Positions 29,596 through 63,952 of a stretch of DNA of 64,000 nt are shown piece by piece. The translations under genes were made by a program, and so were the position numbers. The notes under the pieces are model-generated. The model did not search any database. It saw only the letters and a list, made by a program, of their open reading frames with translations, and was not told where the DNA came from. Source of the stretch: Georgenia wutianyii (lineage in GTDB: Bacteria; Actinomycetota; Actinomycetes; Actinomycetales; Actinomycetaceae). Location of the stretch: contig NZ_CP040899.1 in assembly GCF_006349365.1 (NCBI RefSeq), positions 1,488,001 to 1,552,000 of the forward strand, read 5' to 3'. The stretch's first letter is position 1; each line of letters opens with the position of its first letter.

Positions 29596-30354
29596 TCAGA
29601 GGACGGCGAGCAGGCCGCGCACGAGCGTCGTCGTCGCCCCGACCGTCACGAGGGCGACGGCGGTGCGCCGGGCCGTCCGGGCGCTCACCCGGCGGGCCAC
29701 CCACCCGCCGAGCACGACGCCGAGCGGCACGCTCGCGACGGCGGCGAGCACGAGCGGCCACCCCGGCAGCGCGTCCGGCCCGCTCGTCGCCCCGACCGCC
29801 CACTTCGTCAGCAGCGAGACGGCGCCCATCGTGAGGAAGATCGGCTGGAGGGTGGCGGCGAAGGCGCGCTGGGACCAGCTCGTCGCGTGGGCGTACAGGA
29901 GCACGGCCGGACCGCCCACCCCGACCGCAGTGTTGAGGAACCCCCCGGTCACCCCGGCGACCGGCGCCGCGAGGCGGCCCAGGTCCGGCAGTCGCCAGGA
30001 GAAGGCGATCGGGGCGAGGGCGAGGAGGAGGGCGCCGCCGATGACGACCTCGAGCCACCCGGCGTCCGTCGCCCGGACGACGAGCGCCGCGGGCACCGAG
30101 CCGACGACGATCGCCGGGGCGATCCGCACGAACCGGCGCCAGTCGATGTCGCGGCGCATGACGAGGGTGAGGGCGAGGGCCGAGGCCACGGTCGTGACGT
30201 TCGTGAGCATGACGCCCGCCACCGGCCCGACGAGCAGGACGAAGGTGGGGGAGACGACGAGCCCGGTGCCCATCCCGCTCGTGCGCTGGAGGACCCCGCC
30301 GAGCACGACGGCGCCGAGCACCGCCGCGAGCACACCGGGATCCACGCCGGCCAT
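29596..30354 (-). CDS. TauE/SafE (sulfite exporter)-family membrane protein
   Basis: A 252-residue protein with eight predicted membrane helices in two repeats. The N-terminal G-G-V-L-Q-R-T-S-G-M-G-T-G-L and the second-half G-V-T-G-G-F-L-N-T-A-V-G-V-G-G-P match the paired TauE signatures. The family exports sulfite and organosulfonates in some bacteria; the substrate here is not known. Its start lies 33 bases from the left direct repeat of the small island. Confidence 0.87.
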   Translation of the reverse strand: MAGVDPGVLAAVLGAVVLGGVLQRTSGMGTGLVVSPTFVLLVGPVAGVMLTNVTTVASALALTLVMRRDIDWRRFVRIAPAIVVGSVPAALVVRATDAGWLEVVIGGALLLALAPIAFSWRLPDLGRLAAPVAGVTGGFLNTAVGVGGPAVLLYAHATSWSQRAFAATLQPIFLTMGAVSLLTKWAVGATSGPDALPGWPLVLAAVASVPLGVVLGGWVARRVSARTARRTAVALVTVGATTTLVRGLLAVL

Positions 30355-30386
30355 CCTGCGGCATCGGGGCCGCGCGGCGGGGAGGC

Positions 30387-30492
30387 GCGCCTAACCGGCG
30401 GCGCGCTCCTGGGCGCTGCGCACGCGCGCGGCGTCGATGCGCTCCTGGTCCCCGGCCGAGCGGCGCAGCGGCGGGATGATCTCGTCGTCGGG
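30387..30492. repeat. Left direct repeat: second copy of a GntR-regulator gene's 3' end
   Basis: These 106 bases match 32093-32195. The inner 68 bases (30425-30492) are identical to 32128-32195. The outer part differs by a 3-bp in-frame indel and a few substitutions. On the minus strand the copy still reads through to the regulator's last residues and TAG, as I-D-A-A-R-V-R-S-A-Q-E-R-A-A-G. The left copy is an orphan 3' end, without the rest of the gene. Confidence 0.92.
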
Positions 30493-30601
30493 ACCTGTGT
30501 CTTCGGAGTCTTTCGTTCTCGCCGACTACGGCGACCTACCGCTGCCTGCGCGGCTTCGCCCGCCCGAAGGCCCAGGACTACCCGGGGCCTGTTCTCTCAC
30601 G
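30493..30601. other. Island left edge, no clear gene
   Basis: Between the left repeat and the first island gene. One short frame reads T-Y-R-C-L-R-G-F-A-R-P-K-A-Q-D-Y before stopping at the island gene's end. I cannot assign it; it may be a remnant of a lost gene. Confidence 0.35.
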
Positions 30602-31075
30602 TTAGCTAGCGAAGCCCATGTCGCGAGCGATTAGTCGAATAATTGCATTGCGGTGTTCGTCGACCAGGGCCCGGACATCTACCGAGGCGGGGCCGACGCC
30701 ATCCGCAAGGAGAATCAAAGGAGAGCCTGCGAGTTTGTCTATGTGCTGCCCTAGCTCCTTGTTGCCCATTGCCTCTGCGAGAATGGCGTAGCGACGCAAC
30801 TCTGGCGTTAGTTCGTCGCTGGCATCCATGACCGCCTTGACTTCAGTCGCCATTGACGGCTCGCTCAGGGCTCCCCTGTAAAGGATGTACAAGTACATGT
30901 TGTAAACGAAGTCATGCACCACTCCAAGAGCGTCAATATAGATCTTCTCGCGGATGCGACGTGCCTCGCGCCTAGACTCTCCGTGCTGGCGTAGTCGCTC
31001 CGCCACGACTTGCCCACCCGCACCGATGATTCCGCCGATGACGACACCGGCAAGGCCGTAGAGCGCTGGGTCCAT
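30602..31075 (-). CDS. Island protein: N-terminal membrane anchor plus helical domain, unknown function
   Basis: A 157-residue protein. A membrane segment at residues 5-24 (G-V-V-I-G-G-I-I-G-A-G-G) is followed by a basic amphipathic helix (E-R-L-R-Q-H-G-E-S-R-R-E-A-R-R) and an all-helical soluble domain. No family recognised. Base composition is clearly lower in GC than the flanks and rare codons such as TTA-type leucine and AGA-type arginine appear, pointing to recent acquisition. It lies downstream of the HEPN gene on the same strand and inside the direct repeats. Confidence 0.75.
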   Translation of the reverse strand: MDPALYGLAGVVIGGIIGAGGQVVAERLRQHGESRREARRIREKIYIDALGVVHDFVYNMYLYILYRGALSEPSMATEVKAVMDASDELTPELRRYAILAEAMGNKELGQHIDKLAGSPLILLADGVGPASVDVRALVDEHRNAIIRLIARDMGFAS

Positions 31076-31210
31076 GGTTGGAGACTGCCGACGGGAGCAC
31101 TAGCCGCTAGCGCCGCACCGCGTGGCCGATCGTCCGGCAGGATCTGTGCAACGGACTGAGCCTTTGCTGGTCGTGTCCTGTCGCCTGGGCGGCCAGCCCA
31201 GGGCGCCCAC

Positions 31211-31228
31211 GGATCGGGGCTCCGATCG
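31211..31228 (-). terminator. Possible hairpin after the HEPN gene
   Basis: GATCGG-GGCT-CCGATC gives a 6-bp stem and 4-nt loop (31212-31227), about 13 bases beyond the HEPN gene's stop on the minus strand. The surrounding 165-base gap to the next gene (31076-31240) holds no other feature I can name. Confidence 0.45.
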
Positions 31229-31240
31229 TCGGGAGCAGCA

Positions 31241-32065
31241 TTAGGGTAGAGGTTCCTCCAGAGGAGGATTCACCGAGTATTGGAAGTGCCTGACGTCGTC
31301 AAACGCCCTGTCCGTAAAGTAACTGGGCGGGTGCCGGTGATACCTGGACTCGGAAACCAGCAGTACTGCGTAGATGCGGGCCTCTCCGACCTCGCGCTCG
31401 GTGACTGTCCACTCGTAGTCGAGCGATAGCCCGTCGTGCATTTCCCATTCTACGCTGCCGACCCCCAGTTCGATCGGGCGCGACAAGTACCAAGTGACTT
31501 GTTTTCCTCGCGCGCTAACTGCGCGGCCACGAAACCTGAGTACTTGTCCGACTTCGAGTCGGGGCGCCCGGACGATCGTGCCGGACTCATCGATGCTGCC
31601 TGCCGAGCCCAGTGAGTCGACGACCCGTTCGATAGACGGATAATAGCGTGCCGCAGGGTTCCCTGCAGTGCCGTACAGAGAAAGCTGGTTACTTAGGTGT
31701 TGCGCCACCCCGGATAGGAGGTCTTCCTCATAAGGGACTAGATCTCGGCTGTGGGCGATCGAGTTGCGTACATCATCGACTAGCCCGAAGTATGTCTCCG
31801 TCCGCTTTTTGTCGTCAAATATGGGTTTGAATAACTCCCATGAGTTCAACACGATCCGCGTGAGATGATATGTCTCGACGTATTCGAGAAGGTCCTGCGA
31901 TGTCAGAACCCCGTCTCTGCGTTTCTCCTCTTCCGCTCGCTTGGCAGTCAAACTCTCGCGAGTGGGAGCCCCCTTGGTGTCGAGCCAATCTTCGCCGTCG
32001 AAGACGCGATGGATAGCCGCACGGAGGACTGATTCGATGGAGCGGAGTGCGGCGGTGGGATCCAT
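31241..32065 (-). CDS. Island protein with HEPN-type R-x4-H motif, putative RNase/defence
   Basis: A 274-residue protein in two parts. The N-terminal half is helical and contains R-N-S-I-A-H at residues 100-105, the R-x4-6-H signature of HEPN-superfamily ribonucleases. The preceding W-E-L-F-K-P-I-F is reminiscent of the Swt1-type HEPN group. The C-terminal half (about 165-274) is predicted beta-rich, with V-E-W-E-M-H-D-G and Y-E-W-T-V-T-E, and resembles no domain I can name. Many HEPN proteins act in toxin-antitoxin or anti-phage systems. Lower GC than the genome, flanked by direct repeats. The start at 32065 follows TAGCGT by eight bases on this strand. Confidence 0.75.
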   Translation of the reverse strand: MDPTAALRSIESVLRAAIHRVFDGEDWLDTKGAPTRESLTAKRAEEEKRRDGVLTSQDLLEYVETYHLTRIVLNSWELFKPIFDDKKRTETYFGLVDDVRNSIAHSRDLVPYEEDLLSGVAQHLSNQLSLYGTAGNPAARYYPSIERVVDSLGSAGSIDESGTIVRAPRLEVGQVLRFRGRAVSARGKQVTWYLSRPIELGVGSVEWEMHDGLSLDYEWTVTEREVGEARIYAVLLVSESRYHRHPPSYFTDRAFDDVRHFQYSVNPPLEEPLP

Positions 32066-32092
32066 GCATCGGCACGCTAGCAGCGGAGTCGG

Positions 32093-32195
32093 GCGCCTAG
32101 CCGGCGGCGCGCTCCCGGCTGCGCACCCGCGCGGCGTCGATGCGCTCCTGGTCCCCGGCCGAGCGGCGCAGCGGCGGGATGATCTCGTCGTCGGG
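32093..32195. repeat. Right direct repeat: 3' end of the intact GntR-family gene
   Basis: The partner of 30387-30492. This copy is the genuine C-terminus of the regulator gene that ends at 32097. The 1.6 kb between the repeats (30493-32092) holds the two lower-GC genes. Confidence 0.92.
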
Positions 32196-32879
32196 CGTGA
32201 TGATGACGAGGTCGTTGTCCATGTGGTCGGCCATGGCGTGGACCGCGTCGATGAAGTCGCCGCGCCGCACGGCGTCGACGATGCGCTCGTGCTCGGCCTG
32301 CATGGTGCGGGCGTCGCTCGCGTGGGTGAGCCGCTCGACGTGGCCCGGGGTGGCGAGGCGCTCGTTGATCCCGGCGTACAGCGAGGCGAGCAGCCGGTTC
32401 CTCGCCGCGTCGAACAGCAGGTAGTGGAAGCGCGCGGCGAGCCGCGCCGTGCCCTCCGCGCTGCCGAAGGCGGGGCAGTGGGAGCGCGCGACGTGCTCGG
32501 CGACGGCGGCCTCGAGCGCCGCGACGTCCTCCGGGGTGCGGTGGAGCGCCGCCTGCTGGGCGGCCTCGACCTCCAGCGCCCGCCGGTAGCTGAGCAGCTC
32601 CTCCAGGGTGTAGGCGGTGAGGAACTCGGTGAGGACGGCGCTCGTCGGGGTGCTCGAGCGGACGAACGTGCCGCGTCCGGGCAGCGTCTCGAGCATGCCG
32701 ATGCTCGCCAGGGAGCGCACCGCCTCGCGGATCGTCGAGCGGCCGACGCCGAGCGTCTCGGCGAGCTCGGGCTCGATGGGGATGCGGGCGCCCACCTCCC
32801 ACTCCCCGGTGGTGATCTGCCGGCGCAGGTAGGCCAGCGTCGTGCGCGCCCGCTCGGTGCCGTTCGTCGTCGTCGCCAT
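32097..32879 (-). CDS. FadR-type GntR-family transcriptional regulator
   Basis: A 260-residue regulator with an N-terminal winged helix-turn-helix (about residues 15-80: E-L-A-E-T-L-G-V-G-R-S-T-I-R-E-A-V-R-S-L). An all-helical FCD ligand domain follows (about 95-240), with the metal/ligand-type histidines in A-R-F-H-Y-L-L-F, M-Q-A-E-H-E-R-I-V-D-A and M-A-D-H-M. It should sense an organic acid and control a neighbouring or remote catabolic operon; no obvious target is adjacent. GGGAGAA precedes the ATG. Its last ~35 codons are duplicated at 30387, marking it as the insertion target of the island. Confidence 0.9.
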   Translation of the reverse strand: MATTTNGTERARTTLAYLRRQITTGEWEVGARIPIEPELAETLGVGRSTIREAVRSLASIGMLETLPGRGTFVRSSTPTSAVLTEFLTAYTLEELLSYRRALEVEAAQQAALHRTPEDVAALEAAVAEHVARSHCPAFGSAEGTARLAARFHYLLFDAARNRLLASLYAGINERLATPGHVERLTHASDARTMQAEHERIVDAVRRGDFIDAVHAMADHMDNDLVIITPDDEIIPPLRRSAGDQERIDAARVRSRERAAG

Positions 32880-61028: not shown

Positions 61029-63952
61029 CGGACCCGTTTCCCGCGCCCCGCCACCCGCTGGGCACCGAGGCGGCCCGGCGCTGGCGCCGCCCGGGCCCAG
61101 CCGTGCGCTCCCCGCGCTCGGCGCTGCTCGGGCTCCTCGCCTCCGGGGCCACCCGGTTCGCGGCGGGCACCGGACGCCCCGTCGCGGTCCGCCGCATGCT
61201 CGCCGGGCCCGACGAGCTGCGCGTCCAGCGGCTCTCCGGCGCCACCGTGCGCCCCCCGCGCTGGTGGCACCCGTCGCCGGAGCCGGTGACACCCGCACTA
61301 CCCGAGCGCGGCCTGCGTCGTGCCGCCGCACCGGTGCCGGACGAGCGGACGTGGCGGCCGGGCAGCTTCTCGGCCGCGACGGCGCCCAAGGCGGTGCCCA
61401 TGCGGCTGCCGGCGGAGGTGCAGGCGGCCGGCCGGATGATCACCAGCCTGGACACCCGGCGCCGCTCGGCACCGCCCCGACGGGCGCCCGACCCGGGGAA
61501 CCCCACGGGGACCGGTCCCACGTCGCAGGCACCCGGTGCCGCGACCGGCGCCCCCGATCCGGCGACCGCGACGTCACCAGCCACCCGGCCCACCGGCGCG
61601 ACCCTGCCGGGGGCCGCCGGCACCGGCTCGCGCGTGGACAGCCGTCCCGCCCGCACCGCCCACTACGTGCGCCGCCGCGCGCTCGCCTCGGCGGCCGCCC
61701 GCGGGGCCGGCGTGCCCGTGACCACCCCGTCCTCCGTCGCCGTGCCCACCCCGTCCTCCACCACCGGACCCACCCCGTCCACCACCCCCGGGTCCGGCCG
61801 CAACCGCGCCGCCGTGTCCGCCCACAGGGCGGCGGCGCTCCCCGGCCGAGCGGCCACGGCGCACCGGGGAGGCCTCCTCCCGAGGACGCGCCAGCCCGGC
61901 GCACACCGGCAGCTCGCTGTGCAGCGCGGAGCGGGCCGGTGGCCCGCCGAGGTGGCACGCGAGGTGGCCGGCGTCGCCACCCCGGCCGGGGAGCTCCCGC
62001 CGGGTGTCGCGCCGCTGCGCCGTGCGGTGGCCACATCGGCGAGCCTGAGCCCGCGCGTTGCTGCCGGTGCCGTCGTGCGGCACGCCGGTGCGCCCCGTGC
62101 CGCGACGGTCGCGGCGCCCTCCAGCTCCGTCCCCGGCGTGTCCCCACCCGCCGGGGACGGGCCCACCCGACCGGCCGCACCCGGCCGGCCCTCCAGCTCC
62201 GTCCCCGGCGTGTCCCCACCCGCCGGGGACGGGCCCACCCGACCGGCCGCACCCGGCCGGCCCTCCAGCTCCGTCCCCGGCGTGTCCCCACCCGCCGGGG
62301 ACGGGCCCACCCGACCGGCCGCATCCGGCCGGCCCTCCAGCTCCGTCCCCGGCGTGTCCCCACCCGCCGGGGACGGGCCCACCCGACCCGTGGGGCGCAC
62401 AACCGGCCGTGCCCCGGCGACCGTGCGCCCCGCGGGGCGGACCTCGAGCACTCTCCCCGGTGCGCTCCGAGCCACCGGGCCCGCCCACCCGGCAGGGGGT
62501 GCGACCGGGCGTGCCCAGGCATCGGCGCGCCTCGCCCGGACCTCCGTGTCCGCAGTCCCGGCCGTCCCCGGCGCGGCCCGCGTCGACGACCGCGCCGACG
62601 TGGCGGTCCCGCGGGCGAGGACCCTCCGGCGCCTGCCGCTCGGCGTGCTGCCCGCAGCTGCCCCCGGCGGACGGACGCGGCCCGCGCACACGACGTCCCA
62701 GCGCGCCCTGCGCGTGGGGACCGATGTCACCAGCTCCTCCCAGGCCGCCCGCGCCACCGTGCTCGGCGGCGGACCTGTCGCCCTCACGGCTCCGGCCGCC
62801 GCGCTCCGCCCAGGCGCACCGGCGGTCGGTGCCGACGTGGCGGGGCACCGCGCGGCCGTCGCGGCCGGGCCCCTCGGCACGAGCCCCGGCCCGGCGCGGG
62901 CAGGACTGCGCCGGCTGCCCTCCAGCGGGCGTCGCACGACACCTGCCCTGACCATGGACACCGCACCGGTCTCCCGCCCCGCCGCCCGGACGACGGCTGC
63001 TGCTGCGGCCTCGGCGCACCCGGCCGCCGGTCTGCGGACCGTCCCGACGGCCCAGCCCGTGCCGGCGGGCGCGCTCGGGATCTCCGTGGCGGGCCGTCCC
63101 GTCACCGCCCGCGCGCTCGTGCCGGCGAGCGCCGCCGGGACCCCGACGATGTTCCCGCCCTCCACCCCGCTCTACGCCACGCCGCCGTCGCTGTCGGCCC
63201 CGGTGCGCCGGCTGCCCGTCTGGCCCGGCGGCGCGACCGCGGGGACGCCCGGCCACCCGGCGACAGGCCCGCAGCGCGCCGACGCAGCGCACCGGCCGTC
63301 CGCGCCCCCGGGCGCCACGGTGCGCGGGAGAGGGCCGACGACCGCACCGGCTGCCCACGGCTCCGCTGCCCCCGCGCCGGCCGCCCACCGCGCTGCTCCC
63401 ACCGCGCCGGCCGCCCACCGGGCCGCTCCCACCGCGCCGGCCGCTCCCACCGCGCCAGCCGCGCACGCCCCTGTTGTCCATGCCTCCGCGCCGGCCACCG
63501 TGGGCGCGCGACGCCGTCGGCCGGCCCCCGCGCCGCGCAGCACCCGGGCCTCCGCCGTCGCGGGGCGCGCCGTGCTGCCCCAGGCCACGGCAGGTCCTCG
63601 CATCGTGCGCCGCCTCCTCGCCCCGGCCACACCGGGTCCTCCGGCCCCGGCGCCGGCCACGCCACCCGCGCTGCCCGCCACGTTCGCCGCGCTCAGGGAC
63701 CACGAGTCCGTGAGCCCCGCCCCACCCACGGAAGGACCGGCCATGAGCCTCCTCGGTCACCACCCGACCCGCCCGGCCGCCCCGCCGGCGGTGCCACCGA
63801 CGGCCCTCGCCTTCCGCCGCGACCAGCCGACCGGCGCGCACACCGTCACGGACCTCGACCACCTCGTCGACCTCGTCGCCGAGCGGGTGGAGGAGCGCGT
63901 CGTCGCCGAGCTCGAGCGCCGTGGCCGCCACGGCAGCGTGGGGGTGTTCTGA
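61025..63952 (+). CDS. Long Pro/Ala/Arg-rich eCIS-operon protein with 24-residue tandem repeats
   Basis: A 975-residue protein predicted mostly disordered. The N-terminal ~130 residues are Arg/Pro-rich with some order (L-R-V-Q-R-L-S-G-A-T-V, W-W-H-P-S-P-E-P). Residues ~365-455 are four repeats of 24 residues (P-S-S-S-V-P-G-V-S-P-P-A-G-D-G-P-T-R-P). Further Ala/Pro/Arg stretches include A-A-H-R-A-A-P-T-A-P tandem units near 780-820. The last 70 residues change character, with L-D-H-L-V-D-L-V-A-E-R-V-E-E-R-V-V-A-E, an amphipathic helix. Position between tube 2 and the LysM gene matches the long proline-rich gene in some actinobacterial eCIS loci. Whether it is structural, a chaperone or cargo-related is unknown. 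Confidence 0.8.
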   Translation: MTDPFPAPRHPLGTEAARRWRRPGPAVRSPRSALLGLLASGATRFAAGTGRPVAVRRMLAGPDELRVQRLSGATVRPPRWWHPSPEPVTPALPERGLRRAAAPVPDERTWRPGSFSAATAPKAVPMRLPAEVQAAGRMITSLDTRRRSAPPRRAPDPGNPTGTGPTSQAPGAATGAPDPATATSPATRPTGATLPGAAGTGSRVDSRPARTAHYVRRRALASAAARGAGVPVTTPSSVAVPTPSSTTGPTPSTTPGSGRNRAAVSAHRAAALPGRAATAHRGGLLPRTRQPGAHRQLAVQRGAGRWPAEVAREVAGVATPAGELPPGVAPLRRAVATSASLSPRVAAGAVVRHAGAPRAATVAAPSSSVPGVSPPAGDGPTRPAAPGRPSSSVPGVSPPAGDGPTRPAAPGRPSSSVPGVSPPAGDGPTRPAASGRPSSSVPGVSPPAGDGPTRPVGRTTGRAPATVRPAGRTSSTLPGALRATGPAHPAGGATGRAQASARLARTSVSAVPAVPGAARVDDRADVAVPRARTLRRLPLGVLPAAAPGGRTRPAHTTSQRALRVGTDVTSSSQAARATVLGGGPVALTAPAAALRPGAPAVGADVAGHRAAVAAGPLGTSPGPARAGLRRLPSSGRRTTPALTMDTAPVSRPAARTTAAAAASAHPAAGLRTVPTAQPVPAGALGISVAGRPVTARALVPASAAGTPTMFPPSTPLYATPPSLSAPVRRLPVWPGGATAGTPGHPATGPQRADAAHRPSAPPGATVRGRGPTTAPAAHGSAAPAPAAHRAAPTAPAAHRAAPTAPAAPTAPAAHAPVVHASAPATVGARRRRPAPAPRSTRASAVAGRAVLPQATAGPRIVRRLLAPATPGPPAPAPATPPALPATFAALRDHESVSPAPPTEGPAMSLLGHHPTRPAAPPAVPPTALAFRRDQPTGAHTVTDLDHLVDLVAERVEERVVAELERRGRHGSVGVF
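62117..62388 (+). repeat. Four tandem copies of a 72-bp unit
   Basis: Units start at 62117, 62189, 62261 and 62333 with near-perfect identity; the fourth diverges after about 56 bases. Each encodes the 24-residue repeat of the proline-rich eCIS protein, so copy-number change stays in frame. Confidence 0.95.

Follow-up and report, generated by a model that had tools for sequence, protein, structure and literature searches.

In the single-contig 3.45-Mb genome of Georgenia wutianyii, a segment of foreign DNA is lodged within the 3' end of a regulator gene, gntR, that has itself remained intact. The segment is enclosed by two direct copies of that 3' end, one completing gntR and the other detached beside a tauE/safE-type permease gene, and it carries a HEPN-type gene and an orphan gene, ORF1. 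Plausibly, the island is a familiar kind of mobile-DNA trace, unusually minimal and without the enzyme that usually carries out such insertions. We tentatively favour an integrase-less remnant of an element integrated in the gntR 3' end, similar to the decayed elements known as CIMEs. The locus shows, in compact form, how defence-type cargo can occupy a gene's 3' end while the gene remains intact and no integrase is in view. If strains were found in which the island excises or moves, it would help to decide whether integrase-less islands spread through recombinases supplied in trans or through plain homologous recombination; should it be no more than a decayed remnant, the case is an ordinary one. 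Positions below refer to the window, the whole 64,000-nucleotide stretch of DNA that was analysed (G000:C1:1488001-1552000).

The duplicated 3' end of gntR

The gntR gene (32097..32879, minus strand) encodes a FadR/FCD regulator of 260 residues (PF00392, E 1e-17; PF07729, E 1.5e-21). Its last 32 codons and stop codon form the right copy of the repeat (32097..32195, minus strand, 99 nt), while the left copy, an att-like repeat consisting of a detached gntR 3' end of 33 codons and a stop codon, is found at 30391..30492 on the same strand (102 nt), both lengths being taken from an alignment anchored at the stop codon. A sequence-only reading of this DNA had reported direct repeats of about 105 bp copying the gntR 3' end, which these two copies in the same orientation bear out. 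It had also described 68 identical base pairs followed by a diverged edge with an in-frame indel. This is correct: the identical block occupies 30425..30492 in the left copy (minus strand), corresponding to 32128-32195 in the right, and the edge amounts to just four events in 34 columns, namely three substitutions and one 3-nt in-frame indel. Frame and stop codon are kept in both copies, two of the three substitutions are synonymous in our own reading of the alignment, and the C-termini before the stop codon read ...ARVRSAQERAAG (left) and ...ARVRSRERAAG (right).

A search of the 64-kb window with 24-nt seeds returned the pair as a 78-nt direct repeat (30415-30492 and 32118-32195, 99% identical), one of two direct-repeat families of at least 40 nt. 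The second family is a tandem array with a 72-bp period at 62.0-62.4 kb (62044-62388), with four copies listed and a very high GC content. Over the 29 nt beyond the stop codons the similarity of the two copies is not above chance, an equally good score being reached by 241 of 5000 shuffles and by 478 of 5000 pieces drawn at random from the window. The possibility that the repeat is an ordinary dispersed sequence, raised earlier, does not hold, since in the rest of the genome only four short pieces match the left copy (24-62 bp, 77-96% identity).

On the left side, 36 nt separate the stop codon of the left copy from the start of the tauE gene (29596..30354, minus strand; PF01925, E 6.9e-24). 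On the right side, a heme/iron-type transport region, named by eye, lies past gntR at 33-36 kb.

The inserted segment and its cargo

The segment between the copies (30493..32096, 1604 bp) has a GC content of 60.2%, compared with 74.3% for the window, and is the lowest among 1604-bp stretches sampled every 50 bp. Both of its ORFs have a GC3 of 0.66, against 0.98-1.00 for gntR and tauE, so that the earlier description of 1.6 kb with two genes of lower GC between the copies stands. At the DNA level the island resembles nothing in the four relatives in which both flanks are present, and a comparison with plasmid and phage records gave no match. Its non-coding left end (30493..30601) has no Rfam match, no Pfam match in any of its four short reading frames and no significant fold; Rfam, RNA-fold, promoter and terminator scans returned nothing useful. 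Inverted repeats of at least 14 nt (11-nt seeds) are absent from 30300-32300. A transposon with target-site duplication was rejected, as the repeats are 102 and 99 nt long and non-identical and neither ORF matches a transposase family.

The HEPN-type gene (31241..32065, minus strand) encodes a protein of 274 residues, of which residues 6-113 match the PADLOC model PDC-M34B (E 1.1e-12). A helical part bearing an RX4H motif is followed by a C-terminal beta-sandwich (about residues 137-270), in a structure model with a pLDDT of 91. Residues R100, N101 and H105 are invariant across 21 aligned sequences, and the R-X4-6-H region is helical in the model. The matches listed in a search against solved structures were filled by the beta-sandwich, and the Pfam scores for PF18725 (E 3.4e-4) and PF18731 (E 6.2e-3) both fall below the cut-off. 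Judged by its predicted helical domain and the RX4H motif, the product is assigned to the HEPN RNase superfamily. It is a putative RNase, likely of defence type, and it may cut RNA in phage defence. HEPN helices and the RX4H motif are common to the island protein, to SAV2148-like and Swt1-like HEPN proteins and to the PADLOC candidate PDC-M34B; the island protein differs from the SAV2148-like and Swt1-like proteins in scoring below the Pfam cut-offs and in having the C-terminal beta-sandwich. PDC-M34 would, by its name, be a two-part system (M34A and M34B), whereas PADLOC gives no partner match for ORF1 beside the island HEPN gene. Our literature search found no paper dedicated to the HEPN and beta-sandwich family and none on PDC-M34; the present locus adds a genomic setting for the family.

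The HEPN gene has no match in any of the 212 other genomes of the family (E 1e-5), and matches occur in two of the 393 other genomes of the class and two of the 395 other genomes of the order (E 1e-10; the two samples overlap). Distant homologues (29-43% identity) were found in four plasmid records, and one IMG/VR contig carries a distant homologue with an integrase-like ORF nearby; phage records gave no match to the protein. With gene names given by eye, one further homologue sits among tail-type genes (L100), and another belongs to an island that bears two modules of integrase-like type (L102). This distribution, with absence from the family and presence in plasmids, prophage-like DNA and an integrase-bearing island, points to cargo of mobile type. 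In the L102 island (L102:1-14000), three-gene modules of integrase-like, HTH and zinc-ribbon-like genes (by eye) flank the HEPN homologue and other cargo on two sides, and a 41-nt direct repeat occurs near the start of one module copy. The homologue in genome G883 was considered as a second repeat-flanked insert and rejected, because no direct repeats of at least 14 nt surround it; the repeats are thus not a property of the cargo. The HEPN part of the G883 homologue has no DNA match in 37 congeners.

ORF1 (30602..31075, minus strand, 157 residues) is an orphan, a homologue search requiring shared 5-residue words having found only ORF1 itself. A single-sequence model (pLDDT 70) shows a hydrophobic N-terminus followed by helices. 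Several HEPN homologues elsewhere also have a gene nearby for a small protein in which a hydrophobic N-terminus and helices were recognised by eye (L093:2542-3375, L100:7834-8226 and L101:2448-2804). These small proteins were rejected as relatives of ORF1, the comparison yielding one chance match (E 2.2).

Recombinase genes

No integrase had been visible to the sequence-only reading, and the same was found here: none of the four PF00589 and one PF07508 matches of the genome lies in the window, and neither the island ORFs nor the four short left-end frames match an integrase or recombinase. The recombinases encoded elsewhere in the genome are two of XerC/XerD type, two of phage type (178 and 389 residues, by eye) and one of serine type; the DNA around them shares only 10-14-bp matches with the 68-bp core.

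A search for a larger, integrase-bearing element at the same site had been suggested earlier, and none was found. Across 31 related loci, six tyrosine integrase queries (tblastn, tyrosine type only) detected no integrase next to the 3' end of gntR; the four hits obtained, in L057 and L062, all lie 5' of gntR and several kb away. The scan covered the window and 31 of 35 gntR loci (L074-L077, at 28-48% identity, were left out), with 3' flanks 0.3-8 kb long, at least 3 kb in 23 of the 31. As judged from titles, the starts of abstracts and passages of one paper, none of the matches listed in our literature search reports gntR as an integration site, and the matches listed for genomic islands of Georgenia include none on that subject.

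The locus in related genomes

At E 1e-70, gntR occurs in seven of 213 family genomes, the present one included, and the nearest named loci belong to Georgenia satyanarayanai, Oceanitalea stevensii and a Georgenia MAG. Each of five congeners (L043-L047) has one homologue, with 83-86% protein identity. Every one of them carries a single gntR 3' end and lacks the island. No second 3' end emerged when these genomes, one of them 57% complete, were searched at the DNA level and 40 candidates were scored in each, the other matches touching that part being just 25 and 38 bp long.

In the four congeners whose contigs reach tauE, the interval between gntR and tauE holds 3.8-5.1 kb of other DNA. ORFs were read in three of these intervals (L043, L044 and L046), which contain DUF222/HNH-, DUF429- and SelO-type genes, with a lipoprotein-type gene in addition in L044 (all by eye). 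The DNA directly after gntR in L045, L046 and L047 resembles the end of that lipoprotein gene. Compared with the G. wutianyii genome, the L046 segment gives only 12 matches, all of 76 bases or fewer; the G. wutianyii lineage has therefore either lost that DNA or lacked it throughout, and no exact empty site can be shown. Of the empty site proposed earlier, the single 3' end is thus found in all five congeners, but no exact empty site, given the other DNA in the four loci that reach tauE. The gntR-tauE interval is possibly a variable spot.

Comparison of the two 3' ends with relatives

Within the 68-bp core the two copies do not differ from each other (0/68), whereas they differ from each of the five relatives at 12-14 of 68 positions. 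The inner 27 bp of the block show at most one different base in each relative, and this stretch is also conserved in the protein. The most variable part of the GntR protein is its C-terminal tail, and homologues with 87-93% identity carry differing tails. L044 and L046 have gene bodies that are 4.7% apart, and the differences between them number 1 in the 68 core positions and 3 in the 25 tail positions. Since this close species pair shows the same pattern, and the tail is the most variable part, an identical core with a diverged edge is not diagnostic.

We asked which copy is the native one. The 15-mer GCGCCCAGGAGCGCG of the left copy recurs in L043-L045 and, with one base different, in L046, while the right copy shares at most nine bases there. 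The proposal that the left copy is native, which was made from this 15-mer, was withdrawn, as other comparisons do not uphold it: in a MAFFT alignment all five relatives have the length of the right copy or less; L047 favours the right copy in each of five DNA scorings, with L043-L046 switching sides or tying; and in a scoring of the protein tail 26 of 31 homologues favour the right copy and five the left. This check of polarity lowered our confidence in integration from nearly even to somewhat below that, made illegitimate recombination (see below) marginally less probable, and raised a local duplication from very unlikely to unlikely.

Possible origins of the island

It is the form of the locus that makes an integrative element plausible. 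Integration into the 3' end of a gene is usually recognised by such a signature, in which foreign DNA lies between two copies of that 3' end and the gene remains complete. A foreign element with the HEPN gene and the orphan gene would have integrated inside the gntR 3' end together with a version of the last ~100 bp that it carried itself, keeping gntR complete and placing the second 3' end 1.6 kb away, beside tauE. The likeliest agent would be a site-specific recombinase belonging to an element of prophage or ICE type. The repeats would then represent attL and attR, on which an integrase presumably once acted. The missing integrase suggests a CIME-like remnant or an element served in trans: either the integrase and all else between the att-like repeats was later lost, or the recombinase was supplied in trans, in both cases leaving an attL-cargo-attR arrangement. 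Counted in favour of integration were the differences between the copies, which preserve frame and stop codon, the mobile type of the cargo, and the conserved inner 27 bp, situated where the core of a recombinase site is expected, with the reservation that the stretch is also conserved at the protein level. Counted against it were the lack of a recombinase in the window and of a tyrosine integrase beside the gntR 3' ends of the 31 related loci, the lack of a larger element, the lack of an exact empty site, and the conflicting comparisons over the native copy; the variable tail would by itself produce the clustering of the four differences at the edge, and 1.7 kb is very small for an integrative element. 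Of the first proposal, an element integrating into 3' ends, two points are thus upheld, namely foreign cargo within the end of a gene that stayed complete and a second 3' end beyond it; site-specific integration is not demonstrated.

Known elements offer parallels for such an integrated remnant. Phage 21 inserts into the 3' end of E. coli icd, and the prophage e14 in the same gene is about 15 kb long. The two ends of e14 differ by 12 SNPs, 10 of them synonymous, and icdC is the second 3' end, according to passages of PMC4759930. Our island resembles that arrangement, as far as those passages describe it, in being inserted in the 3' end of a protein gene with two variant ends, mostly synonymous differences and the gene intact. 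It differs from e14, which excises by site-specific recombination, in measuring 1.6 kb and in having no integrase. CIMEs (cis-mobilizable elements) are described in part of PMC5704250 as decayed ICEs or IMEs that keep attL and attR and have lost their integration and transfer genes; the gntR island likewise has cargo between two att-like repeats and neither kind of gene. In contrast to a CIME, no parent ICE/IME or integrase is known for the gntR site, and the repeats are candidate att sites. The ICE Tn5253 has an 83-bp attB in rbgA, a protein gene as well, and its excision was shown (abstract of PMC6079316); the attachment site is of similar length, but Tn5253, as presented there, is an ICE and the gntR island has no transfer genes.

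A less probable and, in our view, rather unlikely origin is homology-facilitated illegitimate recombination, which needs no integrase. Linear DNA of a sibling strain, with a gntR 3' end followed by the HEPN gene and ORF1, would have paired by homology with the resident gntR, its other end being joined illegitimately inside the resident gene at codon 229 and the old 3' end left orphaned. This would account for the missing integrase, the small size and an arbitrary junction. It would also fit the far closer similarity of the copies to each other (0/68 in the core) than to the relatives (12-14/68), as expected for alleles of close strains. Such events were proposed for displaced immunity genes and noted for orphaned Rhs 3' regions (passages of PMC5361080), and proposed for many small variable segments (part of PMC2884548). 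The T6SS/Rhs orphans are alike in that an old 3' region lies downstream of imported DNA, and the passages of PMC5361080 that treat them do not invoke an integrase; they concern effector-immunity and toxin-domain arrays, whereas the present case involves an ordinary regulator gene and unrelated cargo. However, a donor with the HEPN gene and ORF1 already after gntR is needed, and there is none among the five congeners or the 213 family genomes. Moreover, the same passages put illegitimate recombination at orders of magnitude rarer than normal recombination.

More doubtful is a local duplication of the gntR 3' end by a repair or replication error during capture of the foreign DNA, after which the left copy, being unused, would have drifted. 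The two copies are mutually nearest among all sequences compared, and the right copy has the usual form (26 of 31 protein homologues), so the left may be the altered one. Yet drift should ignore the reading frame; here the indel measures 3 nt and, among the three substitutions, two are synonymous, though these are four events only, and the left copy shares GCGCCCAGGAGCGCG with three relatives. To our knowledge, no mechanism commonly makes ~100-bp duplications around inserts.

We regard as slightly less probable still a single RecA crossover of the Campbell type with a non-replicating circle, i.e. a plasmid or excised circle bearing at least ~100 bp of the gntR 3' end and the two genes. What such a crossover yields is precisely the shared stretch duplicated in direct orientation, and 68 bp of identity exceed the threshold of ~30 bp for RecA recombination in E. 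coli given in part of PMC2884548; but why a circle would carry just the gntR 3' end is left unexplained, and the island DNA has no counterpart in plasmid or phage records. Similarly improbable, we think, is an integrase-free cassette that moves by recombination of the RecA type in its host, using its own ~100-bp target 3' end as a homology arm and restoring gntR, by which cargo could spread among close strains without a dedicated enzyme.

Repeats and low-GC DNA elsewhere in the genome

A survey of 464 kb around the window (exact 25-mers, spacing 150-25000 bp) listed eight repeat runs, among which only the gntR pair encloses low-GC DNA (0.606; 0.706-0.849 for the other seven). One run, 79 bp long, consists of two tRNA-Asn genes. 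A 39-bp direct repeat at G000:C1:1464631 and 1474202 (L143/L144), with 9.6 kb of normal GC between its copies, reads as a possible gene end (VADLL followed by a stop codon) and may represent a further duplicated 3' end or else a paralogue. Finally, a second low-GC trough (60% GC) was observed at G000:C1:1312201-1314201 (L136:4201-6201); it contains short, poorly coding ORFs and ends at a tRNA-Met gene (L136:6078-6153), which makes it a candidate island at a tRNA.
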